From positions 1,808,501 through 1,872,500 of the forward strand of contig CP016269.1 in assembly GCA_001880285.1 (NCBI GenBank): a DNA stretch of 64,000 nucleotides, given 5' to 3'. The notes beneath the pieces are model-generated. The model worked only from the letters and a program-made list of their open reading frames with translations, was not told the origin of the DNA and searched no databases. This document shows positions 24,225 to 41,921 of this stretch, one piece after another (the stretch's first letter is position 1; the number at the start of each line of letters is the position of its first letter). The DNA is from Flavobacteriaceae bacterium UJ101. Lineage in GTDB: Bacteria > Bacteroidota > Bacteroidia > Flavobacteriales > UJ101. A program made the translations under genes and the position numbers.

Positions 24225-25292
24225 CTATTCTTGAAAAACAATGGAAACTTCGTGTGTTTTAGGATGTGCTTGACAAGTTAATGTCATTCCTGATTTCACT
24301 TCGTCATCTGATAAAGCCATATTATGATTCATAAAGGTTTCCCCTTGTGTAGTTTTGGCAACACATTTCCCACAAACACCTCCTTCACACCCATAATTAG
24401 GTTTATGTCCTGCATCTAAAATAGCACGCAAAATCGTGTCATTTTCTGGTACATGTATTTGATGTTTTTCTCCCTCTAATTCAAATGTTAATAAAGATTC
24501 TACCCCCTTTTTTTGTGTATCCTTTGTATTTGAACCAAAACTTTCAAAAAAGATTCTAGTTTCAGGGACATCAAGGGTTTTTAAAGTGTTTTTAGTATGT
24601 TCAATCATAGAGCCAGGCCCACAGATGTAATATTCAGCATTTTGGGCATAAGGAGGATTTTCATTAATAAATGCTTTAATAGAAGTTTCATCAATCCGTC
24701 CTGTTTTGTAGGGTTTTTCTTTTTCCCATAAGTCTGACCATTTAGATTTTGGACGACTTAAAATATGTTGTAGGAATAATCGATTTTCATAATGATTTTG
24801 AAATTTATCAAGTTCTTTCTTGAACATAATGGTATTTTCATTCGAATTTCCGTATAATACATAGAGATAACTTTCAGGTTCTTGATTTAATACCGATTTT
24901 ATAATAGAAAGAATAGGGGTGATACCACTTCCAGCTGCAAATAAATAATAACTTTTATAGTTTTTTGGATCAATTGAAGCAGAAAAATGTCCTTCAGGAG
25001 GTAATACTTCTATAAAATCCCCTATTTTTAAATAATCATTAATATGATTAGAAACCAGACCTTTTTCTACTCGTTTTATGGCAATTTGAAGTGGTTCTTC
25101 TTCAAAAGGGTTACTACAGATAGAATAAGAACGACGTACTTCCTTACCATTTAAATTAAAAATAAGGGTTATATATTGGCCAGGTTTGTAGGAGAAGGTT
25201 TCATATAATCCTGGAGGAATGTCAAATGATAGGGAAACAGCATTATCTGTTTCTTTTTGAATATTTATTATCTGAATGAAATAGGTTTTCAT
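24225..25292 (-). CDS. Ferredoxin-type oxidoreductase (FAD, NAD(P)H and plant-type 2Fe-2S), likely Rieske oxygenase partner
   Basis: 355 residues with three parts: an FAD domain with RRSYSICSNP (R-x-Y-S/T), an NAD(P)-binding domain with FAAGSGITPILSIIK and YYICGPGSMI, and a C-terminal 2Fe-2S domain with CEGGVCGKC plus a distal cysteine (LTCQAHP). This is the PaaE-like order found in reductases of multicomponent oxygenases. It is the last gene of a four-gene operon headed by a Rieske oxygenase, so I infer that it feeds electrons to that enzyme. The true partner and substrate are not proven. Confidence 0.88.
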   Translation of the reverse strand: MKTYFIQIINIQKETDNAVSLSFDIPPGLYETFSYKPGQYITLIFNLNGKEVRRSYSICSNPFEEEPLQIAIKRVEKGLVSNHINDYLKIGDFIEVLPPEGHFSASIDPKNYKSYYLFAAGSGITPILSIIKSVLNQEPESYLYVLYGNSNENTIMFKKELDKFQNHYENRLFLQHILSRPKSKWSDLWEKEKPYKTGRIDETSIKAFINENPPYAQNAEYYICGPGSMIEHTKNTLKTLDVPETRIFFESFGSNTKDTQKKGVESLLTFELEGEKHQIHVPENDTILRAILDAGHKPNYGCEGGVCGKCVAKTTQGETFMNHNMALSDDEVKSGMTLTCQAHPKTHEVSIVFQE

Positions 25293-25302
25293 GAGTGATT
25301 TT

Positions 25303-25614
25303 TTAATTTGAAATACGTATTATTTTTTTAGCAAAAATTTGTACCGGATAAGATTCTGCATAAGCTCCTTCGACCATTACTTGTTCTCCTTCTTTTAAAT
25401 CAATATAATCTTTACCTAGATTTGGAATACTAACAATCATGGTATATTTACCTCCTTTATTATCTTTTAAGAAAGTAGTGTAACCGTCTTTTTCAGGTTG
25501 AATTTTGGTTACGGTTAAAACTAAACTATTTGAAACCTCAGAGATGGTTTGATTTTTTGAGGTGGTACAATTTAAAAAAGCAATTATTACAAAAGATACT
25601 ATAATTCTGATCAT
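25303..25614 (-). CDS. Small hypothetical lipoprotein
   Basis: 103 residues. The signal sequence MIRIIVSFVIIAFLNC ends with a lipobox-like LNC, giving a 16-residue leader. The rest is beta-rich (SLVLTVTKIQPEKDGYTTFL ... EGEQVMVEGAYAESYPVQIFAKKI, quoted in parts) and could form a small OB-like barrel; that fold guess is weak. It lies between the glyoxalase-like gene (4 bases) and the reductase (10 bases), so it belongs to the operon. No family recognised. Confidence 0.65.
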   Translation of the reverse strand: MIRIIVSFVIIAFLNCTTSKNQTISEVSNSLVLTVTKIQPEKDGYTTFLKDNKGGKYTMIVSIPNLGKDYIDLKEGEQVMVEGAYAESYPVQIFAKKIIRISN

Positions 25615-25618
25615 ATTA

Positions 25619-26014
25619 TTATTTTTTAGGTTCTAATAAATCCCACAAATTACCATATAAATCTTCAAAAACGGCTACAGTTCCATAAGATTCTTTTTTG
25701 GGTGGACGAATAAAATGAACTCCATTTTCTTTAAAACGATTGTAATCATACCAAAAATCATCTGTGTAAAGAAATAAGAATACACGACCTCCAGTTTGAT
25801 TTCCAACAGCTTTCGATTCAAGGTCATTTTTAGCTTTCCCTAATACTAATCCATTTTCTTTAGATTGATTAGGTGAGATAATTACCCACCGCTTATGTTC
25901 TTTAGGAATTTGTACATCTTCAATCAAATGAAAACCCAATTTTTGAGTGTAAAAGGCAATCGTTTCATCATAATCATGAACGATTAAGGTAGTTAACGCA
26001 ATTCGGTTATTCAT
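25619..26014 (-). CDS. VOC family (glyoxalase/bleomycin resistance-like) protein
   Basis: 131 residues from ATG 26014 with the paired beta-alpha-beta-beta-beta modules of the vicinal oxygen chelate fold: IALTTLIVHDYDETIAFYTQKLGF at the start (shortened: HDYDETIAFYTQKLGFHL) and AVFEDLYGNLWDLLEP at the end. The latter has the usual D-x-x-G-N-x-W/L-x-L/E pattern. A longer start at 26080 would overlap the Rieske gene by 74 bases and is rejected; with 26014 the overlap is 8 bases. Its reaction is unknown; it may act on a product of the Rieske enzyme. Confidence 0.82.
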   Translation of the reverse strand: MNNRIALTTLIVHDYDETIAFYTQKLGFHLIEDVQIPKEHKRWVIISPNQSKENGLVLGKAKNDLESKAVGNQTGGRVFLFLYTDDFWYDYNRFKENGVHFIRPPKKESYGTVAVFEDLYGNLWDLLEPKK

Positions 26015-27206
26015 TTGATTGTTCTTTTTCGATCCATTCTTTAATGATTTCTTGAAATTTGAATATGGCATATTCACCATGCTTTGCTTGGGCTCCTACA
26101 CTAAACATAGGAGAAGACAATGACTTTTGTTGTTGTTCGCAAGCATAAATATCTTCTTCCATAAAATCCCCACTAGCCATAGGATCTGTGTTAGGATCTC
26201 CCTCATATTTTCCCTTCGTTCCATGATGACTCCAAAAATTACTCATTCCTGATTTTAAATATTGTTGAGTTTGTTTCCATTCACTCACATTCATCACTTT
26301 AGAACGAATGATAACTAGAGTACGATCAGGAGCCATAGGTATTACTTGAAAAGTACTCCAAGAACCTTCACTTTCAGCTAAACCTAAATTTGGAAATAAC
26401 CATGGAACGTAAGCTCCAATTTGATCTTCAGGGACAGAATCAATTAATACATAAGGTGATAATTTTTTAACATTCTCTCTATACTCAGGAATTAAAGGTT
26501 CGTAAAACCAATAATGAGGACCAATCCAACCAAATTCAGCTTTTTCATGATCGTACATATTCAAAGTTCCTTCATGAAGATGAGCTAAATGATAGTGATC
26601 AATATAGTTTTCTACTACAATTTTCCAATTAGCTTTGATTTCTTTCATGTAAAAAGGTTCTTCTTCCTTTTCTGAATATTCAATGAGTTCTTCTACTTTA
26701 TGAGGACCTAGATAGGGTTCAACTTCTCCAAAATAAGAGCGAATACTCGGAGCATTTTTTTCTGGATGAACAAATAACATACCTTTAAAAATATCAACAG
26801 AAGCTTCATGTAGGTTTAAATTACACTCATGTAATTTTTTGCCTTTTAAAGAAGGGAATTCCTCATTTTGCTTAGGTACAGAGGTTAAATTTCCTTCTAA
26901 ATCGTAAGTCCAATCGTGGTAAGGGCAAGTAATAGCTTTTTGATCTTTTCCTACTGCACGAAGTAATTGAGTTCCTCGATGTCGACAAATATTGTGAAAA
27001 GCTCTTAAACGATGGTCCCGTCCTTTAATAATAAAAATATTGTTAAGACCCGCCTGAATACTAATATAATCTCCAGGGTTTTGAATATCTTCAATAAAAC
27101 CAGCAAATTGCCATGTTTTACTAAAGATATGCTTCATTTCTAAGTCTAACCACTTTTGTGAAGTATAAGCTTCTACAGGTAAAGCGTGCATCATGGTTTT
27201 TTTCAT
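26007..27206 (-). CDS. Rieske 2Fe-2S aromatic-ring-hydroxylating/quaternary-amine oxygenase, alpha subunit
   Basis: 399 residues. The Rieske cluster motif is C74-x-H76 ... C94-x2-H97 (CRHRG and CPYHDW). The mononuclear iron site is D203-x2-H206-x4-H211 in NYIDHYHLAHLH, and the third ligand is probably an aspartate in EEDIYACEQQQ. The overall pattern resembles the CntA/choline monooxygenase branch and general ring-hydroxylating alpha subunits. No beta subunit is present. The reductase three genes downstream is the likely electron donor. An FNR/CRP-type box lies 55-70 bases upstream of the ATG. The substrate is unknown. Confidence 0.88.
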   Translation of the reverse strand: MKKTMMHALPVEAYTSQKWLDLEMKHIFSKTWQFAGFIEDIQNPGDYISIQAGLNNIFIIKGRDHRLRAFHNICRHRGTQLLRAVGKDQKAITCPYHDWTYDLEGNLTSVPKQNEEFPSLKGKKLHECNLNLHEASVDIFKGMLFVHPEKNAPSIRSYFGEVEPYLGPHKVEELIEYSEKEEEPFYMKEIKANWKIVVENYIDHYHLAHLHEGTLNMYDHEKAEFGWIGPHYWFYEPLIPEYRENVKKLSPYVLIDSVPEDQIGAYVPWLFPNLGLAESEGSWSTFQVIPMAPDRTLVIIRSKVMNVSEWKQTQQYLKSGMSNFWSHHGTKGKYEGDPNTDPMASGDFMEEDIYACEQQQKSLSSPMFSVGAQAKHGEYAIFKFQEIIKEWIEKEQSNE

Positions 27207-27219
27207 AATGAAAGGTATT

Positions 27220-27234
27220 TTGATTTGAGATCAA
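27220..27234 (-). promoter_or_regulatory. Second, loose FNR/CRP-like palindrome before the Rieske gene
   Basis: TTGAT-TTGAG-ATCAA has the same half sites as the boxes at 27262 and 27617 but a 5-base spacer instead of 4. Its centre is about 41 bp from the centre of the 27262 box. It overlaps the predicted start of transcription and the -7-like AATCTTTG (27232-27239). Confidence 0.4.
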
Positions 27235-27261
27235 AGATTATTAAAAGATAAGCATTATTTT

Positions 27262-27275
27262 TTGATTTATATCAA
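27262..27275 (-). promoter_or_regulatory. FNR/CRP-family box TTGATTTATATCAA
   Basis: A perfect TTGAT-N4-ATCAA palindrome, the classical FNR/DNR consensus. Its centre is about 41 bp upstream of the start point predicted from a near -7 element (AATCTTTG, 27232-27239 on the minus strand), the position of class II activation. It would act on the Rieske operon. Confidence 0.7.
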
Positions 27276-27301
27276 AAAGGAAGTTTGAAGAAATTGTATG
27301 G

Positions 27302-27565
27302 TTAGTTAAATATGGTTGTAAAAAGAGTAGAAATTGAATAGAAGCACATACTAATCCAAGTAATCATAATAAACCAATATAAAATAGGATTTTCTTTTTT
27401 ATGAATAGGTTCCATAAAATAGGTAGAGCCTGTTATAAGGTCAGGAATAACCCAAATTAAAAATAGAATTCCCCAAGCCCATTCCCATTGCATGAAAATG
27501 ATAAGATACATTAGAATTAAAGCAACGATTGTTCTCCATTTTTTTATACTAGAAGCCATAAACAT
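27302..27565 (-). CDS. Small hypothetical membrane protein
   Basis: 87 residues with three hydrophobic segments: IVALILMYLIIFMQWEWAW, GILFLIWVIPDLITG and ILYWFIMITWISMCFYSIS. The first two may be one hairpin. It is rich in tryptophan. No family recognised. Its promoter region is shared with the divergent cytochrome c gene, and one FNR/CRP-type box lies midway, so the two are probably co-regulated. ATG at 27565 is used; ATG at 27559 is possible. Confidence 0.7.
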   Translation of the reverse strand: MFMASSIKKWRTIVALILMYLIIFMQWEWAWGILFLIWVIPDLITGSTYFMEPIHKKENPILYWFIMITWISMCFYSISTLFTTIFN

Positions 27566-27616
27566 ATTTTATATTGTATAACATTGCTAAATTAGGGTTA
27601 AATAAAAGAATATCTT

Positions 27617-27630
27617 TTGATATAAATCAA
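27617..27630. promoter_or_regulatory. FNR/CRP-family box TTGATATAAATCAA shared by divergent promoters
   Basis: A perfect TTGAT-N4-ATCAA palindrome midway between the start codons at 27565 (minus) and 27684 (plus). On the plus strand a -7 element TATCTTTG is at 27653-27660; on the minus strand TAATTTAG at 27587-27594 is one base off the consensus. Both give start points about 40-41 bp from the centre of the box, so one site could activate both genes. Confidence 0.72.
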
Positions 27631-27683
27631 AAAATAGTAATAAGGATCCGTTTATCTTTGCTCTGTTCAGAAAAAAATAAAAA

Positions 27684-29039
27684 ATGAGAAAAATTTCCAT
27701 CATTATTTTAATAGGCTTAATAAGTAGTAATTTTTATAAAAACTATTCTTATGAAAAAGTTAACCCTATTGATATTAATAAAGAAGGATTAGGTTTATTA
27801 GAAAAACTTCAAGGACATTGGGTTGGGACTAATGAAGTATTAGGAATGAAGTTTCCATGGTTTTCTTTTGATTATCGAGCTATTTCTCCTTCACATATTC
27901 ACGGTATTTTTGAAGGAGGAACTTCAGGAAACTTATTAACTTCTTTTTTTGTAACTAATTTTAAAGGGAAGAGAACAATCATGGCTCGAAATGGAGGTGT
28001 TTTAAATGGTATTTATCGTTCCTCCTATTTTGTCCTAGATCGAGTAGAGCATTCTAAAGATGAAGATTATTATCGATTGGTAGATGCTATTGGAGGGGAG
28101 AAATTGATGTATATGGAGCTTATGTTTAAAAAAGAAGAACTTGTTTGGAATGTATACACAAGTCAATTAGGAGCTGATTCAAAACCTAGTAAACACATGG
28201 AGTTTAAAGCCAAAAGGAATTCTGTTTTATTAGCTCAGAAGGCAGCTGAACAAGTTGGCTTTCCTCAAAACAAAATTGCTTTTGATTTATCGAAAGGTTT
28301 TAATACAACTCAATTATATGGAAATTTAGAAAGAAAAACAGCTACTTTTTTAAGTAAATCATCCCATCTTGATGTGTATGATTTAGCAAAGAAAGCTCAA
28401 GATGTAATCACCATAGCTGATTATCCTTTTTTAAGTACATTACATATGAAGTTAATTAAAAACCCAGCTCATAAAAAAGTAAAAACGTTTATTTACCTCT
28501 CTAGTGAACCACTGGCTGATAAAGTAGGTTTTAAAAGTATGGAAGCTTTTAATTCTGTTTTATTATTTCCTGAATTGAATCCTACTGTATCAGAATTTCG
28601 TTTTACGTATTTACATCCGGGTGATTATTTTATAACGATCATTTCTGATACAGATGAAAATGGAGAAGTTTCTATGAATGATATAGTGTTACCAAGTCAG
28701 TTAATTACCATTCTTCCAGAAGAAAATAAGGAGATGGTGATTGCTGTAGAAAAAGGAGTTGTACAAAAAGAGCATATCAATGATTTTATAAAGCCAATCA
28801 GTTTCGAAGAAGATGTAGAAGTTATTATTCAAAATATGTGTTTGTTTTGTCATAGTGGAGATTTACCAAGCGGAGGTTTAGATTTAAGTACAAAAGAAAA
28901 TATAAAGAAAGCAATAGAAGAAAATGGATTACTCTATAGAATTAATAATATGGATAACCCAATGCCTCCTGAAGGATTATTAGATGGGGAATACCGAACT
29001 ACAATAGAAAATTGGCAAAAAACAGGGTTTAATGATTAG
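27684..29039 (+). CDS. Exported three-part protein: lipocalin-like domain, beta domain, C-terminal cytochrome c domain
   Basis: 451 residues with an N-terminal signal (ISIIILIGLISSNF). Residues about 35-180 look like a lipocalin/nitrobindin-like barrel (KLQGHWVGTNEV, GGTSGNLLTSFF). Residues about 195-350 are beta-rich and include an EF-hand-like loop, DTDENGEVSMND. The C-terminal 75 residues hold a covalent heme site C386-L-F-C389-H390 and a likely Met ligand in NPMPPEG. I do not recognise the whole architecture. An electron-transfer or heme-sensing role in the periplasm is an inference. Promoter and FNR/CRP box lie directly upstream; it is convergent with the Crp/Fnr-like gene, only 2 bases apart. 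Confidence 0.7.
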   Translation: MRKISIIILIGLISSNFYKNYSYEKVNPIDINKEGLGLLEKLQGHWVGTNEVLGMKFPWFSFDYRAISPSHIHGIFEGGTSGNLLTSFFVTNFKGKRTIMARNGGVLNGIYRSSYFVLDRVEHSKDEDYYRLVDAIGGEKLMYMELMFKKEELVWNVYTSQLGADSKPSKHMEFKAKRNSVLLAQKAAEQVGFPQNKIAFDLSKGFNTTQLYGNLERKTATFLSKSSHLDVYDLAKKAQDVITIADYPFLSTLHMKLIKNPAHKKVKTFIYLSSEPLADKVGFKSMEAFNSVLLFPELNPTVSEFRFTYLHPGDYFITIISDTDENGEVSMNDIVLPSQLITILPEENKEMVIAVEKGVVQKEHINDFIKPISFEEDVEVIIQNMCLFCHSGDLPSGGLDLSTKENIKKAIEENGLLYRINNMDNPMPPEGLLDGEYRTTIENWQKTGFND

Positions 29040-29041
29040 CA

Positions 29042-29605
29042 TTACTTTTTACCTCTTATTCGACTCAATGTTTCTTGGCTGACTCCTAACATTGAAGCAA
29101 TGTGACCTAAATTTGCTCTCTGTGTAATATCAGGATAATAGTGTAATAATAAATCATATTTTTCTTTAGCAGATAAAAAATAATATCCTTTATAAAAATG
29201 ATCGAGCATTGCCAAGTCTTGTTGACTAATCATGCGCATTGAGCGCTCTAGTATGGGATGTTTTTTGTATAAAACTTCCCATTTTTCATAACTAATTGAA
29301 ACGAGTATAGAATCTTCGGTTGTTTCATATAGCTCTTCTGTAGATTGATTGAATATGTAACTATGCCAAGCTGTAAAAAAATGATGATGTGTGTAAATCC
29401 AATGAGTGATTTCTTTATCTTTATAATAGAAATAAGAACGGACAGTTCCTTTAACTAAAAAATATAACTGTTTACAAAAAATACCTTTTGGAATAATAGT
29501 AGTATTCTTTTTGTAGTGATCAATTTTAGAAGCTTTCTTTAAATCTTCAATAATTTCATCAGTTAAATGACAGTATGTTTTGATATAATGTATAAATTCT
29601 TCCAT
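29042..29605 (-). CDS. Crp/Fnr family transcriptional regulator
   Basis: 187 residues: an N-terminal cyclic-nucleotide-binding-like barrel (IIPKGIFCKQLYFLVKGTVRSYF) and a C-terminal helix-turn-helix (LGHIASMLGVSQETLSRI). It has no N-terminal cluster of cysteines, so it is not a 4Fe-4S FNR; only Cys12 and Cys44 lie in that half. This short type is very common in Bacteroidota. It is next to two genes with FNR/CRP-type boxes, but its recognition helix (SQETLSRIR) cannot be shown to read TTGAT. I call it a candidate regulator only. Confidence 0.85.
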   Translation of the reverse strand: MEEFIHYIKTYCHLTDEIIEDLKKASKIDHYKKNTTIIPKGIFCKQLYFLVKGTVRSYFYYKDKEITHWIYTHHHFFTAWHSYIFNQSTEELYETTEDSILVSISYEKWEVLYKKHPILERSMRMISQQDLAMLDHFYKGYYFLSAKEKYDLLLHYYPDITQRANLGHIASMLGVSQETLSRIRGKK

Positions 29606-29608
29606 ATT

Positions 29609-30502
29609 CTAAAATAATGATAAAAATTGAGTTTTAAGAATGTTGTGCAAAACAGGATTTCTATTTTTCTTATTCCAAATTATCGATAATACAGCTTGTT
29701 GTCTAATATTAGGAATCTCAAGAAATTTTACCTTCAAATTAAACCCTTTTTGTAAAGAGGTTGGAACAACGGCAATTCCCAAGCCATTTTCAACTAAAGT
29801 AAAGATGGTTTGTGCATGTACAGATCGATGACTGATATTGGGTTCAAATCCCTGGTCCTCAAAAATACTCATGATTTTTTGATAGTATAAAGGACTATAG
29901 TCTTTTGAAAAAAGAATAAAATTTTCTTCTTCCAATTGTTTCATACTTTTAAAATTGTCATGAGTTAAAAAATGCTTCTGGGGAAGAACAACAGAAAAAG
30001 TGTCATTGAAAACGGTTTTGATTTGAATATCATTTGGAACTTGATCTAAGCGTACAAACCCTAAGTCTAAGGCATTGCTTTGGATAGCTTCTACTTGTTT
30101 TAAATTAGAAATTTCTTCAAAGTTCATGTGAGTATTAGGAAAATGAGTGTTCATGGTTACCAATAATTTTGGTATGATGGTTTGCATAGCAGAGCCCACA
30201 AAACCAATAGTAAGTTCCCCTTCTTCTCCTTTGTCTAATTTTTTTATGTGTTGTTGAGTTTGTTTTAAATGATTAAAAATAAAATCAGTCTCTTTTTTTA
30301 AATAATGCCCCGCAGGAGTTAATTGTACTTTACGCTTATTTCGGGAAAATAATTCAACTTCTAATAAGTTTTCCATTTGTTTGATTTGACGACTTAAACC
30401 AGGTTGTGAGATGAATAGTTTTTCTGCAGCCCTTCTAAAATGTAATTCTTCAGCAACTGCTTTGAAATAATGAAGGTGTCGTAATTCTAATTGATAACTC
30501 AT
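29609..30502 (-). CDS. LysR family transcriptional regulator (divergent from hutH)
   Basis: 297 residues from ATG 30502. The N-terminal winged helix shows LRHLHYFKAVAEELHFRRAAEKL and SQPGLSRQIKQMENLLEVELF, both typical. A periplasmic-binding-like sensor domain covers residues about 90-290 (LTIGFVGSAMQTIIPKLL). The longer frame from 30670 includes a translated palindromic repeat and is rejected. The gene is divergent from hutH, so control of histidine use is a fair inference, but the ligand is unknown. A palindrome ATAACT-ATG-AGTTAT is centred on its own start codon. Confidence 0.88.
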   Translation of the reverse strand: MSYQLELRHLHYFKAVAEELHFRRAAEKLFISQPGLSRQIKQMENLLEVELFSRNKRKVQLTPAGHYLKKETDFIFNHLKQTQQHIKKLDKGEEGELTIGFVGSAMQTIIPKLLVTMNTHFPNTHMNFEEISNLKQVEAIQSNALDLGFVRLDQVPNDIQIKTVFNDTFSVVLPQKHFLTHDNFKSMKQLEEENFILFSKDYSPLYYQKIMSIFEDQGFEPNISHRSVHAQTIFTLVENGLGIAVVPTSLQKGFNLKVKFLEIPNIRQQAVLSIIWNKKNRNPVLHNILKTQFLSLF

Positions 30503-30543
30503 AGTTATTAAATGTTGATAAAAATAGTATTTATAATTATCAA
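30494..30543. promoter_or_regulatory. Candidate LysR operator region between lysR-type gene and hutH
   Basis: Two inverted repeats: ATAACT-cat-AGTTAT at 30494-30508, centred on the regulator's start codon, and TTGATAA (30515-30521) with TTATCAA (30537-30543), spacer 15. The second contains a T-N11-A core typical for LysR proteins. Both lie in the divergent region. Binding is not shown. Confidence 0.4.
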
Positions 30544-30611
30544 TAATAAAACTTAAATTTGAGATAAGCAAATGTGAATTGAGAATAAAGATAGAAAGAG
30601 AAAAGAATATA

Positions 30612-30638
30612 GATTCCGAAATAAATTCGGGATGACAT
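30612..30638 (+). repeat. Solitary palindromic extragenic repeat upstream of hutH
   Basis: ATTCCGAA-ataaa-TTCGGGAT (30613-30633) followed by GACAT. It has the same layout as the paired copies at 8974-8999 and ends in the same ATGACA-like edge. Like the truB copy it is followed toward the gene by AC-rich leader sequence containing AATAACCAATATAC. Confidence 0.65.
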
Positions 30639-30700
30639 TTATCATTCAAAACTAATAACCAATATACCAAATACTAACATACTAAAATACCAACAAGTAC

Positions 30701-32263
30701 ATGAAAAATATATTTCAATATGGGCATGATTTTTTAACGTCAGGTATAGCGTTAAAAATAGCAAAAGGGGAAGTAAAAGGAATTTTAACAGATTCTACAA
30801 AAGATAAAGTACAAAATTGTCGTGAAATTGTAGAGGATATTGCACATTCAGATAAAGTAGTGTATGGAATTAATACAGGATTTGGAATTTTAGCTAATAA
30901 ACATATTTCTCCAGAAGATGGGAAAACATTGCAATATAAAATTTTACAAAGTCATAGTTCAGGTTTGGGAAAACCTATAGCAGAAGATATCGCGAAACTA
31001 ATGCTAGTAACTAAAGTTCACGCTTTAGCGAAAGGCTTTTCAGGATGTCAATTGCAAACTTTAGAACGGTTAATTTGGCATATTGAAAATGATGTAATTC
31101 CTGTTATTCCAGAAAAAGGTTCTGTGGGTGCTTCAGGAGATTTAGCACCGCTTTCACATATGAGTTTGCCTTTAATTGGATTAGGTGAAGTGTTTTTTCA
31201 AGGAAATATTGTACCTACAGAAGAAGTATTAAAGCAATTTGATTTAAATCCCATTCCGTTAAGTTATAAAGAAGGTCTTTCATTGATTAATGGGACGCAA
31301 TTTATGCTAGCACATGCTATTAAAGCAGTGGAGCGTTTACAAAATGCATTGGATACAGCAGATATCATTGGAGCTATGAGTATTGAAGCCTTGATGGGAT
31401 CGCAATCTCCATTTCAGCCTCATTTTCATGAATTAAGGCCGTATAAAGGGAATAAATTAGTAGCGCAACGTATTCGAAAAATTTTAGAGAACTCTGAAAT
31501 AGGAAATTCTCATGTAGATTGTGATCGTGTTCAGGATCCTTACTCTATGCGATGTATTCCACAGGTTCATGGAGCTACTCGAAATGCATGGCTGCATTTA
31601 AAAGAAACGGTTGAAATTGAATTAAATGCCGTTACCGATAATCCTATCATTTTTTCAGAAACCGATACCATTAGTGGAGGTCATTTTCATGGACAACCTA
31701 TTGCTCTTCCAATGGATTATGCTTGTTTCGCAGCAGCTGAATTAGGGAATATTTCAGATAGAAGAACGTATTTATTAATAGAAGGAAAGTGGGACTTACC
31801 TGTTCTTTTAATGGACAATATAGGTTTGAATAGTGGATTTATGATTCCACAATATGCAACAGCCGCTTTGGTTACCGAAAATAAAACATTGTGTTTCCCA
31901 AGTAGTGCTGATAGTATTCCCACTTCATTAGGGCAAGAAGATCATGTGAGTATGGGAAGTATTAGTGGACGTAAATTAAATACTGTGATATCCAATTTAG
32001 AACAGATTTTAGCCATAGAACTATTAAATGCTGCCCAAGCATTAGATTTCCGAAGACCTTTAAAATCATCTGCAATTGTTGAAGAAATGCATGCATTAGT
32101 TCGTTCAAAAGTTGATTTTGCTACAGAAGATCGTGTATTTGCTACAGATATTGCTAAAGTACATGAATTGATTCATAGCAATGAATTTATCAATCATTTT
32201 AATCAGAAAACAATAGAATTAGGTTTAAATGTAAATGAAACTTTTGAAGAATTTTCAATTTAG
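30701..32263 (+). CDS. hutH: Histidine ammonia-lyase
   Basis: Removes ammonia from histidine to give urocanate, first step of histidine degradation. 520 residues. The catalytic MIO group forms from Ala144-Ser145-Gly146 in GSVGASGDLAPLSH. YGINTGFG, RVQDPYSMRCIPQVHGA and TDNPIIF are further family signatures. hutU follows after 51 bases. The leader is AC-rich without a Shine-Dalgarno sequence and has a palindromic repeat in front. Confidence 0.97.
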   Translation: MKNIFQYGHDFLTSGIALKIAKGEVKGILTDSTKDKVQNCREIVEDIAHSDKVVYGINTGFGILANKHISPEDGKTLQYKILQSHSSGLGKPIAEDIAKLMLVTKVHALAKGFSGCQLQTLERLIWHIENDVIPVIPEKGSVGASGDLAPLSHMSLPLIGLGEVFFQGNIVPTEEVLKQFDLNPIPLSYKEGLSLINGTQFMLAHAIKAVERLQNALDTADIIGAMSIEALMGSQSPFQPHFHELRPYKGNKLVAQRIRKILENSEIGNSHVDCDRVQDPYSMRCIPQVHGATRNAWLHLKETVEIELNAVTDNPIIFSETDTISGGHFHGQPIALPMDYACFAAAELGNISDRRTYLLIEGKWDLPVLLMDNIGLNSGFMIPQYATAALVTENKTLCFPSSADSIPTSLGQEDHVSMGSISGRKLNTVISNLEQILAIELLNAAQALDFRRPLKSSAIVEEMHALVRSKVDFATEDRVFATDIAKVHELIHSNEFINHFNQKTIELGLNVNETFEEFSI

Positions 32264-32314
32264 AATATCAAATTAATAACATACTAATATTCCAATATAC
32301 TAAATACAAAGCAA

Positions 32315-34315
32315 ATGACATTCAAAGAACAAATCCTACAAGGAATACCATATCAATTACCTTCTAAAAAAGAATATCCTAAAGGAGGAAATCCAGCTCC
32401 GAAGCGGAAAGATATATTAACTGTTGAGGAAAAGAAATTAGCTATTCGAAATGCATTACGTTATTTTCCAGAAGAATGGCATTCAGAGTTGGCAGTAGAA
32501 TTTGCAGAAGAATTAAAACAATTTGGACGTATTTATATGTATCGTTTTCAACCTGATTATGAAATGTATGCACGCCCAATTGAAGAATATCCAGCGAAGA
32601 GTAAACAAGCTGCAGGAATTATGCTTATGATTCAGAATAATTTAGATCCTGCTGTAGCACAACATCCAAATGAATTGATTACCTATGGTGGAAATGGTGC
32701 TGTTTTTCAAAATTGGGCACAATATTTATTGACGATGCATTATCTAGCTACTATGACGGATGAACAGACTTTGCATATGTATTCTGGACATCCTATGGGG
32801 TTGTTCCCTTCCCATAAAGAGGCTCCTCGTGTAATTGTAACCAATGGGATGATGATTCCGAATTATTCAAAACCAGATGATTGGGAAAGATTTAATGCTT
32901 TAGGAGTTACACAATATGGGCAAATGACCGCAGGATCGTATATGTATATTGGACCACAAGGAATTGTACATGGAACCACCATTACTGTAATGAATGGATT
33001 TCGAAAAAAGTTGGAAGAAGGAGAAACTTCAAAAGGAAAAATTTTCTTGACTGCAGGCTTAGGTGGGATGAGTGGTGCTCAACCTAAAGCAGGAAATATT
33101 GCGGGCTGTATTACCGTATGTGCCGAAGTAAATCCAAATGCAGCAAAGAAACGTTACGAACAAGGTTGGGTGGATGTTTTGGTTGATACTATAGAAGATT
33201 TAGTAAACCGAGTAAAAGAAGCACAAAGAAAAGAAGAAATCGTTTCAATTGCCTACATTGGAAATGTAGTAGAGGTATGGGAACAATTTGATGAAGAAGA
33301 TATATTTATACATTTAGGATCTGATCAAACGTCTTTACATAATCCGTGGGCAGGAGGTTATTATCCTGTAGGATTATCATATGAAGAGTCCAATATCATG
33401 ATGGCAGAAAATCCTACTTTTTTTAAAGAAAAAGTACAAGAAAGTTTAAGAAGACATGCTGCTTCAGTGAATAAACATACAGCAAAAGGAACCTATTTTT
33501 TTGATTATGGAAATGCTTTTTTATTAGAAGCTTCACGAGCAGGAGCTGATGTAATGGCTGAAAATGGTATTGATTTTAAATATCCATCGTATGTACAAGA
33601 TATTTTAGGACCAATGTGCTTTGATTATGGATTTGGACCTTTCCGTTGGGTATGTACTTCGGGAAAACCAGAAGATTTGAAGAAAACGGATCAAATTGCT
33701 TTAAAAGTAATGCGTGAGATAATGAGGACAGCTCCTGAAGAAATCAAACAACAAATGAACGATAACATTCGTTGGATTGAAGAAGCAGAGCAAAATAAAT
33801 TAGTCGTTGGATCACAGGCTCGTATTTTATATGCTGATGCGGAAGGACGTGCTAAAATTGCAGAAGCTTTTAATCAAGCTATTCAATCAGGTGAAATTAC
33901 AGCTCCGGTTGTGTTAGGTCGTGATCATCATGATGTCAGTGGAACAGATTCTCCCTATCGTGAAACCAGTAATATTTATGATGGTAGTAAGTTTACTGCT
34001 GATATGGCTATTCATAATGTAATTGGAGATAGTTTTCGTGGTGCAACCTGGGTTTCTATTCACAATGGTGGAGGTGTAGGCTGGGGAGAAGTTATCAACG
34101 GAGGTTTTGGGATGTTATTAGATGGAACTGCAGAAGCTTCCAAACGTTTAAAAAATATGTTATTTTATGATGTAAATAATGGAATCTCAAGAAGAAGCTG
34201 GGCGCGAAATAAGGAAGCATTATTTGCTATTAAACGTGAAATGGAACGTACACCCGAATTGAAAGTGACCTTACCCAATATGGTAGAAGATGATGTATTA
34301 GAAACATTATTTTAA
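32315..34315 (+). CDS. hutU: Urocanate hydratase
   Basis: Adds water to urocanate to give imidazolonepropionate, using tightly bound NAD as electrophile. 666 residues, the longer Bacteroidota type (classic enzymes have about 555). Signatures are LITYGGNGAVFQNWAQY, QMTAGSYMYIGPQGIVHGTT, TAGLGGMSGAQPKA and FDYGFGPFRWVCTSG. It continues the hutH message. A strong hairpin follows at 34339-34373. Confidence 0.96.
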   Translation: MTFKEQILQGIPYQLPSKKEYPKGGNPAPKRKDILTVEEKKLAIRNALRYFPEEWHSELAVEFAEELKQFGRIYMYRFQPDYEMYARPIEEYPAKSKQAAGIMLMIQNNLDPAVAQHPNELITYGGNGAVFQNWAQYLLTMHYLATMTDEQTLHMYSGHPMGLFPSHKEAPRVIVTNGMMIPNYSKPDDWERFNALGVTQYGQMTAGSYMYIGPQGIVHGTTITVMNGFRKKLEEGETSKGKIFLTAGLGGMSGAQPKAGNIAGCITVCAEVNPNAAKKRYEQGWVDVLVDTIEDLVNRVKEAQRKEEIVSIAYIGNVVEVWEQFDEEDIFIHLGSDQTSLHNPWAGGYYPVGLSYEESNIMMAENPTFFKEKVQESLRRHAASVNKHTAKGTYFFDYGNAFLLEASRAGADVMAENGIDFKYPSYVQDILGPMCFDYGFGPFRWVCTSGKPEDLKKTDQIALKVMREIMRTAPEEIKQQMNDNIRWIEEAEQNKLVVGSQARILYADAEGRAKIAEAFNQAIQSGEITAPVVLGRDHHDVSGTDSPYRETSNIYDGSKFTADMAIHNVIGDSFRGATWVSIHNGGGVGWGEVINGGFGMLLDGTAEASKRLKNMLFYDVNNGISRRSWARNKEALFAIKREMERTPELKVTLPNMVEDDVLETLF

Positions 34316-40880: not shown

Positions 40881-41921
40881 ATGAAATACGATAAATTAGG
40901 AAATACAGGAGTAGAAGTTTCTAAAATTTGTTTAGGAACTATGACTTGGGGAGAACAAAATACAGAAGCTGATGCTCATGAACAATTAAATTATGCAATA
41001 GATAAAGGAATTAATTTTATTGATACAGCTGAAGCATATGCTGTACCACTTAATAAAGAAACACAAGGTTTAACAGAACAATACATTGGAACTTGGTTGA
41101 AAAATCAAAAACGAGATAATATAATTTTAGCCTCAAAGGTTTCAAGCGCAAATCCTGTTGCATTAAAACATATTCGGGAAGGAAAAGGTTTCTCAGGAAA
41201 AGGTTTCATTCAAGAAGCTGTTGAAGGTTCTTTAAAACGTTTACAAACCGACTATATTGATTTGTATCAATTGCATTGGCCTGAGCGGCCAACTAATTTC
41301 TTTGGACAATTAGGTTATACACATATTTCAGATGATCCTGTTACTGATTTTCGATATGTGATGGAAGAATTGAAAAAACAAGTGGAAAAAGGAGCAATTC
41401 GCTATATTGGAATTTCAAATGAAAGTCCTTGGGGATTAATGCAATACATCAATTTAGCTAGAGAATTTGATTTGCCTCTTGTATCGAATCAAGATGCCTA
41501 TTCATTAATTAACCGAAAATTTGAAGTAGGAATGTCTGAAATGGCAATTCGTGAGAATTGTAAATTATTAGCATATTCTCCTTTAGGAGGTGGAATTCTT
41601 TCAGGGAAATATTTAGGAGGTAAGAAACCAGAAGGAGCTCGATATACCAATTGGCCAAATTATTTTGCTCGATATGCTCATGAAAACACAGTAAAAGCTA
41701 CACAGCAATACGCTAATTTAGCGCAAGAGAATGGACTATCTTTAACACAAATGGCACTTTCATTTGTTAACTCACGAGATTTTCTAATTTCCAATATAAT
41801 CGGAGCCACGACTATGGAACAATTAAAAGAAAATATAGATTCTATTGATATTATATTAAATGAGGATATTTTAAATGAAATAGAAAAGATTCATTTAGCA
41901 TTTCCAAACCCTGCACCTTAA
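40881..41921 (+). CDS. Aldo/keto reductase (Tas-like)
   Basis: 346-residue NADPH-dependent oxidoreductase. The catalytic tetrad is seen as D in NFIDTAEAYAV, Y in the same stretch, K in ASKVSS, and H in YQLHWPERP. GIGS-like cofactor residues lie in the C-terminal part (NIIGATTMEQLKENI). It resembles E. coli Tas with its extended loop (VPLNKETQGLTEQYIG). The physiological substrate is unknown. A terminator follows. Confidence 0.9.
   Translation: MKYDKLGNTGVEVSKICLGTMTWGEQNTEADAHEQLNYAIDKGINFIDTAEAYAVPLNKETQGLTEQYIGTWLKNQKRDNIILASKVSSANPVALKHIREGKGFSGKGFIQEAVEGSLKRLQTDYIDLYQLHWPERPTNFFGQLGYTHISDDPVTDFRYVMEELKKQVEKGAIRYIGISNESPWGLMQYINLAREFDLPLVSNQDAYSLINRKFEVGMSEMAIRENCKLLAYSPLGGGILSGKYLGGKKPEGARYTNWPNYFARYAHENTVKATQQYANLAQENGLSLTQMALSFVNSRDFLISNIIGATTMEQLKENIDSIDIILNEDILNEIEKIHLAFPNPAP

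Follow-up and report, generated by a model that had tools for sequence, protein, structure and literature searches.

A short CRP-fold protein as the predicted local regulator of a Rieske oxygenase cluster in Flavobacteriaceae bacterium UJ101

Why should an oxygenase operon lie behind a DNA box of the FNR type? The question arises in Flavobacteriaceae bacterium UJ101, in a stretch of 64,000 nucleotides that is called the window here (positions 1,808,501 to 1,872,500 of contig CP016269.1, assembly GCA_001880285.1). The window holds a Rieske oxygenase operon, a gene for a small membrane protein, a gene for an exported protein with a lipocalin-like barrel and a cytochrome c part, and crpA, which encodes a CRP-fold protein. 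A first-pass annotation had proposed that a single regulon links the first three of these, and comparative tests of the boxes and of the regulator support this link. Judged from sequence, it is very probable that CrpA is a local ligand-responsive class II activator of the Rieske cluster.

Two boxes and their promoters

Box 1 (27262..27275, minus strand; TTGATTTATATCAA) is the predicted class II site of the Rieske operon, and box 2 (27617..27630, no strand assigned; TTGATATAAATCAA) lies between two divergent genes. Both are perfect TTGATNNNNATCAA sites in intergenic DNA, both match the consensus found in relatives, and together they span 369 bp, so the earlier report of two perfect TTGAT-N4-ATCAA boxes less than 370 bp apart was correct. 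The two boxes are not a product of chance. When the two intergenic stretches were dinucleotide-shuffled 20,000 times, two boxes never appeared, and the window contains three perfect TTGAT-N4-ATCAA sites as compared to 0.42 expected (at least three in 0 of 100 shuffles). The third site, at 41257, is within an open reading frame (ORF) and was dismissed. In the whole genome (3.07 Mb) there are 40 perfect sites versus 8 for the reversed pattern. Four of the 40 lie outside ORFs: both window boxes, one at 212674 and one at 125534. The last was rejected as a promoter site; it sits where the ends of convergent ORFs overlap. Since 36 of the 40 matches are within ORFs, the plain FNR consensus alone is uninformative. 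The consensus derived from relatives, TTGAYNTANRTCAA, occurs at just four places in the genome, namely the two window boxes and two places inside long ORFs. The regulon with the exact box would therefore be the Rieske cluster, degenerate sites being outside this search. An extended pattern with two mismatches was swamped by noise (383/369 matches versus 182/201 in the control).

The −7 element of Bacteroidota is TAnnTTTG (PMC7366714). Start-point geometry was judged by locating this element, and starts were placed about 4–5 nt past TTTG, following the name '−7 element'. TTTG is found exactly 26 nt past box 1 in the Rieske direction, in the element AATCTTTG (27232..27239, minus strand; spaced as in relatives), and exactly 26 nt past box 2 in the direction of the lipocalin/cytochrome gene, in the element TATCTTTG (27653..27660, plus strand). 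With a start about 4–5 nt further on, the box centre falls near −41, and both promoters are predicted to have class II geometry. This agrees with the first-pass annotation, which had put box 1 about 41 bp from the Rieske start point. Its second proposal, that box 2 serves both strands, holds for the lipocalin/cytochrome side and is weak on the small-membrane side, where the candidate −7 element TAATTTAG (27588..27595, minus strand) is an imperfect match, with TTAG 25 nt past the box. Divergent use of box 2 is plausible, if weak in the window. The clear predicted case is Polaribacter sp. Z022 (L129), in which one box is flanked on either side by a TTTG 26 nt away, facing a small membrane gene one way and a lipoprotein-lipocalin operon the other way.

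Conservation was tested at order level. Relatives of the Rieske protein are 70–80% identical in 28 Bacteroidota loci and 56–62% identical in other phyla; a search for related loci with the lipocalin/cytochrome protein as query found no locus. The clusters of the 28 Bacteroidota relatives hold a small membrane protein, a lipocalin-like protein, cytochrome c, a reductase and other partners. Spacing was surveyed in 31 Bacteroidota loci (the 28 Rieske loci and 3 further ones) using the pattern TTGAY-N4-RTCAA, counted per strand. Among 148 intergenic box matches TTTG stands at offset 26 in 68, while the other 39 offsets (10–49) average 1.5. Offset 20 is unlike the remaining offsets, with TTTG in 22 of the 148 matches (clusters L096–L138), and may reflect either an alternative promoter geometry or the pairing of boxes; many boxes in relatives form closely spaced divergent pairs. 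The consensus of 80 offset-26 sites is TTGA(C/T)NTAN(A/G)TCAAAA, plus an A three bases ahead of TTTG.

The unit of box, 26 nt and TTTG occurs in 73 copies in the 28 Rieske loci, 27 of which have at least one full unit; the reversed control yields 0. The first-pass annotation had stated that boxes not conserved in related species would speak against its regulon; we find them conserved. Fixed spacing is expected of an activator, and the constant 26 nt fits one. Full box-promoter sites number 67 in 19 cluster genomes, versus 1 control match, and most are on the contig with the Rieske cluster. Across the order, a box followed after 26 nt by ANNTTTG is present in 75 of 395 genomes, the reversed pattern giving 2 matches in all. 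Many of these sites adjoin other members of the short CRP clade, away from any CrpA orthologue, so the crp-box design is more general than the Rieske cluster.

CrpA as the predicted binder

Which protein would read these boxes? The best-supported predicted binder is CrpA (29042..29605, minus strand), a 187-aa CRP-fold one-component regulator. The PF00027 profile matches it at 27.6 bits, barely above the cut-off of 27.5, and HTH_Crp_2 stays below its cut-off. The AlphaFold model (pLDDT 88) has 621 PDB matches at E<=0.001, of which 3dn7 is the nearest, followed by CRP/FNR proteins. In this model, a cyclic nucleotide-binding beta-roll, a long dimer helix and a C-terminal helix-turn-helix (HTH) place CrpA in the CRP/FNR superfamily. 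The recognition helix reads SQETLSRIR, with residues 176–182 invariant in 8 aligned homologues, and Q-E-T-L-S-R retains the E..SR pattern of FNR, a comparison that draws on the contacts made by the FNR recognition helix. An E181–A6 correlation is described in PMC1274295.

All 28 Rieske-cluster genomes have a CrpA homologue, 24 of them at 46–55% identity and four at 35–41% (three Chitinophagales metagenome-assembled genomes (MAGs) and one Lewinella MAG). Among the 395 genomes of the order, identity to CrpA above 45% is confined to UJ101 itself and one relative (G071), which carries a lipocalin cluster with boxes. Recovery by similarity to CrpA gave 29 related crp loci. In 18 of them a box lies between −3 and +30 of the crp stop codon, and in each of these TTTG stands 26 nt past the box; the shuffle control (300 rounds) gave 0.09 boxes and 0 full units. 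Comparison points strongly to the box, its spacing, its association with the regulator and its local range, and the adjacent CrpA gene is the best and a strong candidate for the regulator of both boxes.

E-T-L-S-R occurs in the genome only in CrpA and in a paralogue at 212 kb, and both crp genes adjoin intergenic boxes. At 212093-212717 (L073:8093-9128) the stop codon of the paralogue gene (helix PETLSR) overlaps a perfect TTGATTTCAATCAA box; TTTG comes after a further 26 nt, ahead of an HbpS-like (PF03928) gene, and crp gene, box and target are arranged as in related crp loci. Elsewhere in the genome, at 2905144-2911636 (L346:3144-9635), five similar Crp-like genes with a helix of the ASLSRIK/ASLGRIK type, lacking the Glu, are found in 6.5 kb, interleaved with one long exported-protein gene.

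The shared helix type, and a perfect box directly behind its gene at 26 nt from TTTG, could mean that the window boxes are bound mainly by the 212-kb paralogue instead of CrpA. However, its own box (TTGATTTCAATCAA) does not have the NTAN spacer, and CrpA co-occurs with the cluster in 28/28 genomes, a matching search not having been made for the paralogue. We consider this alternative quite improbable. Several observations nevertheless weigh against CrpA as activator of the whole cluster. There is no box behind the crpA stop codon here, crpA is convergent with the barrel-cytochrome gene, and the paralogue (212093-212677), also with E-T-L-S-R beside its own box, could bind the window boxes. The promoter of the small membrane gene is an imperfect one (TAATTTAG, 25 nt). 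The 18 crp-box loci are not fully independent, because they were picked by similarity and some are close relatives. CrpA binding, start sites and control of expression are predictions from sequence.

Could the boxes belong to a global regulon of the FNR type, answering to oxygen, as the first-pass annotation had suggested? The perfect E. coli FNR consensus, the class II spacing and the E-T-L-S-R helix are in its favour. However, the only cysteines of CrpA are C12 and C43, with 0–1 in the closest orthologues, and no FNR-type motif for an Fe-S cluster is present; the same annotation had itself noted that the adjacent Crp/Fnr-family gene lacks iron-sulfur cysteines. Among promoters, the family box (TTGAYNTANRTCAA) is found only at the Rieske cluster, degenerate sites being outside this test, and the other perfect FNR boxes are all within ORFs, bar those at 212674 and 125534. 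The genome-wide box search and the list of Crp/Fnr paralogues that had been called for yielded 40 boxes (4 outside ORFs) and 12 CRP/FNR paralogues (relatives have up to about 40 candidate stretches): the boxes are real, a wide FNR regulon is not seen. Moreover, the key enzyme of the cluster consumes O2. One of the paralogues, at 1055.9 kb, has an N-terminal CRMC (CxxC) motif and a full HTH and adjoins genes for a fused COX1/FixO (cbb3) protein and a copper-type P-ATPase; it is a better candidate for the FNR role than CrpA. The confinement of the family box to the cluster already largely refutes the oxygen (anaerobic) regulon, which we regard as very improbable. An oxygenase under an 'FNR box' is no paradox, because CrpA is without Fe-S cysteines and a separate FNR candidate exists.

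The cluster and its possible signal

The Rieske non-heme iron oxygenase (26007..27206, minus strand; PF00355, PF00848) has intact catalytic motifs, CxH...CxxH from residue 74 and D203-x2-H-x4-H, the third ligand being, by eye, the Asp in MEEDIY. With a Rieske motif and a 2-His-1-carboxylate iron site it is predicted to be of the alpha-subunit type. It falls outside the GbcA family, scoring 132.7 bits, far under the NCBIfam equivalog cut-off of 670 bits. The operon continues on the same strand with a VOC/glyoxalase-fold protein (25619..26014; PF00903, start set at an inner ATG), a small lipoprotein with a weak DUF3221-like profile match (25303..25614) and an oxygenase reductase with FAD, NAD and 2Fe-2S domains, PaaE/GbcB-like by profile (24225..25292). 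Just upstream of the Rieske gene lies the gene for the 87-aa membrane protein (27302..27565, minus strand), identified by hydropathy and as a conserved partner. In G071 a VOC gene follows a crp-box unit, and lipoprotein-related ORFs stand between Rieske and reductase in several Tenacibaculum/Polaribacter loci.

A reductase follows the Rieske gene in 27/28 Bacteroidota and 43/52 other loci, and the small membrane protein was detected nearby in 22/28 and 36/52, the 52 'non-Bacteroidota' loci including, by title, a few Saprospiraceae/Bacteroidetes MAGs. By record title, the Rieske-reductase-membrane cassette extends beyond Bacteroidota to Alphaproteobacteria, Gammaproteobacteria, Acidimicrobiia, Chloroflexi groups, Poribacteria, Vicinamibacteria and others. 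On plasmid pTHAF33_a of Ruegeria sp. THAF33 (L110/L283) the order is DUF2141 protein, TetR, small membrane protein, Rieske and reductase, so a different local regulator stands in for CrpA there; a related TetR-like gene is common to 17 non-Bacteroidota loci.

The exported protein of 451 aa (27684..29039, plus strand) was resolved by its model, VIA-align and profile matches into a nitrobindin/lipocalin-like barrel (32–180), an Ig-like, DUF2141-like part (about 245–357) and a cytochrome c part (CLFCH at 386). PSCyt1 scores above and DUF2141 below the cut-off. Most relatives encode barrel and cytochrome in two neighbouring genes. VIA-align gives the barrel Z 10–12.5 to spirocyclases, which are best, to Rv2717c and to nitrobindin (Z 10–11 over residues 32–180, at the level of fold); there is no Pfam nitrobindin match, and the lipocalin alignment, searched against PDB sequences, had no match. 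His171, in the last barrel strand, is invariant in 25/25 relatives. In nitrobindin His158 is the heme ligand, and by end offset (model 179 = chain 166) His171 presumably falls where it would lie. If this is true, the barrel may hold a heme site next to the c-type heme in one polypeptide.

We infer that ligand binding, dimer binding and activation through the −7 promoter take the following course. On binding a signal, a CrpA dimer would bind TTGAY-NTAN-RTCAA boxes centred near −41 and, by class II activation, bring the housekeeping RNA polymerase of Bacteroidota to promoters with TAnnTTTG. Transcription of the Rieske/VOC/lipoprotein/reductase operon and of the gene for the exported barrel-cytochrome c protein would thereby be turned on, and probably that of the small membrane gene as well. 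A small molecule handled by the cluster is the inducer we favour; oxidation, export or detoxification of this same molecule would most likely be the task of the cluster products. To judge by their targets, related crp-box units may be small-molecule detoxification switches; these targets are SMR exporters, TolC-type efflux, flavodoxin-fold reductase, NmrA-like, thioesterase and VOC proteins. Quaternary-ammonium sensing by CrpA was also considered; SMR exporters in some clusters and crp-box units, the GbcA/CntA-like Rieske protein and conserved Trp/Tyr in the sensor domain are only suggestive of it.

The heme and cytochrome content makes a heme or nitric oxide (NO) signal possible. CrpA would then be a sensor like DNR or NnrR, and the cluster a regulon for nitrosative or heme stress. 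The TTGATnnnnATCAA box is also that of DNR (PMC1274295). The regulated exported protein combines the nitrobindin-like barrel (Z 10–11) with the invariant His171 and a c-type heme motif, clusters of relatives include di-haem peroxidase and cytochromes, and the box of the 212-kb paralogue precedes the HbpS-like gene. However, most partners in relatives are oxygenase, fatty-acid-hydroxylase-like, radical SAM, ABC and SMR proteins, the best barrel matches are spirocyclases, and the likeness to nitrobindin is one of fold. The family box is at no denitrification, hcp or other promoter in the genome; no nir/nor/nos promoter bears it, whether nir/nor/nos genes exist not having been searched. A heme/NO sensor is in our view unlikely.

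A membrane protein with an adenylate/guanylate cyclase domain is encoded inside the Rieske cluster of an Aquimarina MAG (L112:5898-6983). This Guanylate_cyc-domain gene, with related ORFs in three other loci, raises the idea that CrpA answers a cyclic nucleotide from a clustered cyclase. Yet the gene is missing from most loci and from the window neighbourhood, and the cAMP phosphate-binding cassette GE..L...xxR.A is absent, as read by eye, from the 8-sequence CrpA alignment, which leaves this idea with very little probability. The small-molecule inducer stays the favoured one.

Next to crpA (29609-34315) a LysR-type regulator gene is divergent from histidine ammonia-lyase-like and urocanase-like genes (hut by sequence look).

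Relation to known systems

The superfamily and class II activation are already known. The Bacteroidota CRP clade, the NTAN-spacer box, the crp-box-promoter layout and the regulon were not found in the papers searched: a search of open-licence PMC papers, in part worded so that it may miss the slashed 'Crp/Fnr', turned up no Bacteroidota regulon of this kind. We think it somewhat more probable than its opposite that Bacteroidota expanded a short CRP-fold clade into local, TetR-like one-component switches of neighbouring detoxification and redox operons, with TTGAY-N4-RTCAA at a fixed 26 nt upstream of the −7 TTTG and in many cases immediately past the crp stop codon, and that CrpA is the branch dedicated to the multi-phylum membrane protein-Rieske-reductase cassette. 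The box-spacing signature allows direct computational assignment of targets to flavobacterial CRP/FNR paralogues, and hence ligand guesses. It also ties a widespread oxygenase cassette to conserved membrane, cytochrome and barrel proteins, and screening a single promoter for inducers could show what the whole pathway acts on.

The Rieske protein and reductase of the window resemble GbcA-GbcB and CntA (6y8j) in Rieske domain and reductase type, and these are among the best-scoring families. The bridging position is Asp203 here, whereas it is Glu in CntA. The best match of CrpA in sequence and fold is 3dn7, the cyclic nucleotide binding regulatory protein of Cytophaga hutchinsonii, which shares the short Bacteroidota CRP architecture and has E-Y-L-S-E-I-R where CrpA has E-T-L-S-R-I-R; we know of no box or function for it. 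With FNR, DNR and NnrR, CrpA shares the TTGAT-N4-ATCAA-type box, the E..SR recognition helix and the site near −41. It differs from them in having no Fe-S cysteines, a length of 187 aa, a short C-terminal HTH, a preference for the NTAN spacer and a single local target cluster, with no denitrification or anaerobic targets carrying the box. In HcpR2/crp2 a crp-family gene adjoins its single target hcp, with the site in between (PMC1274295). CrpA is like HcpR2/crp2 in this crp-beside-target layout, while HcpR2/crp2 has a CRP-like box and another target.

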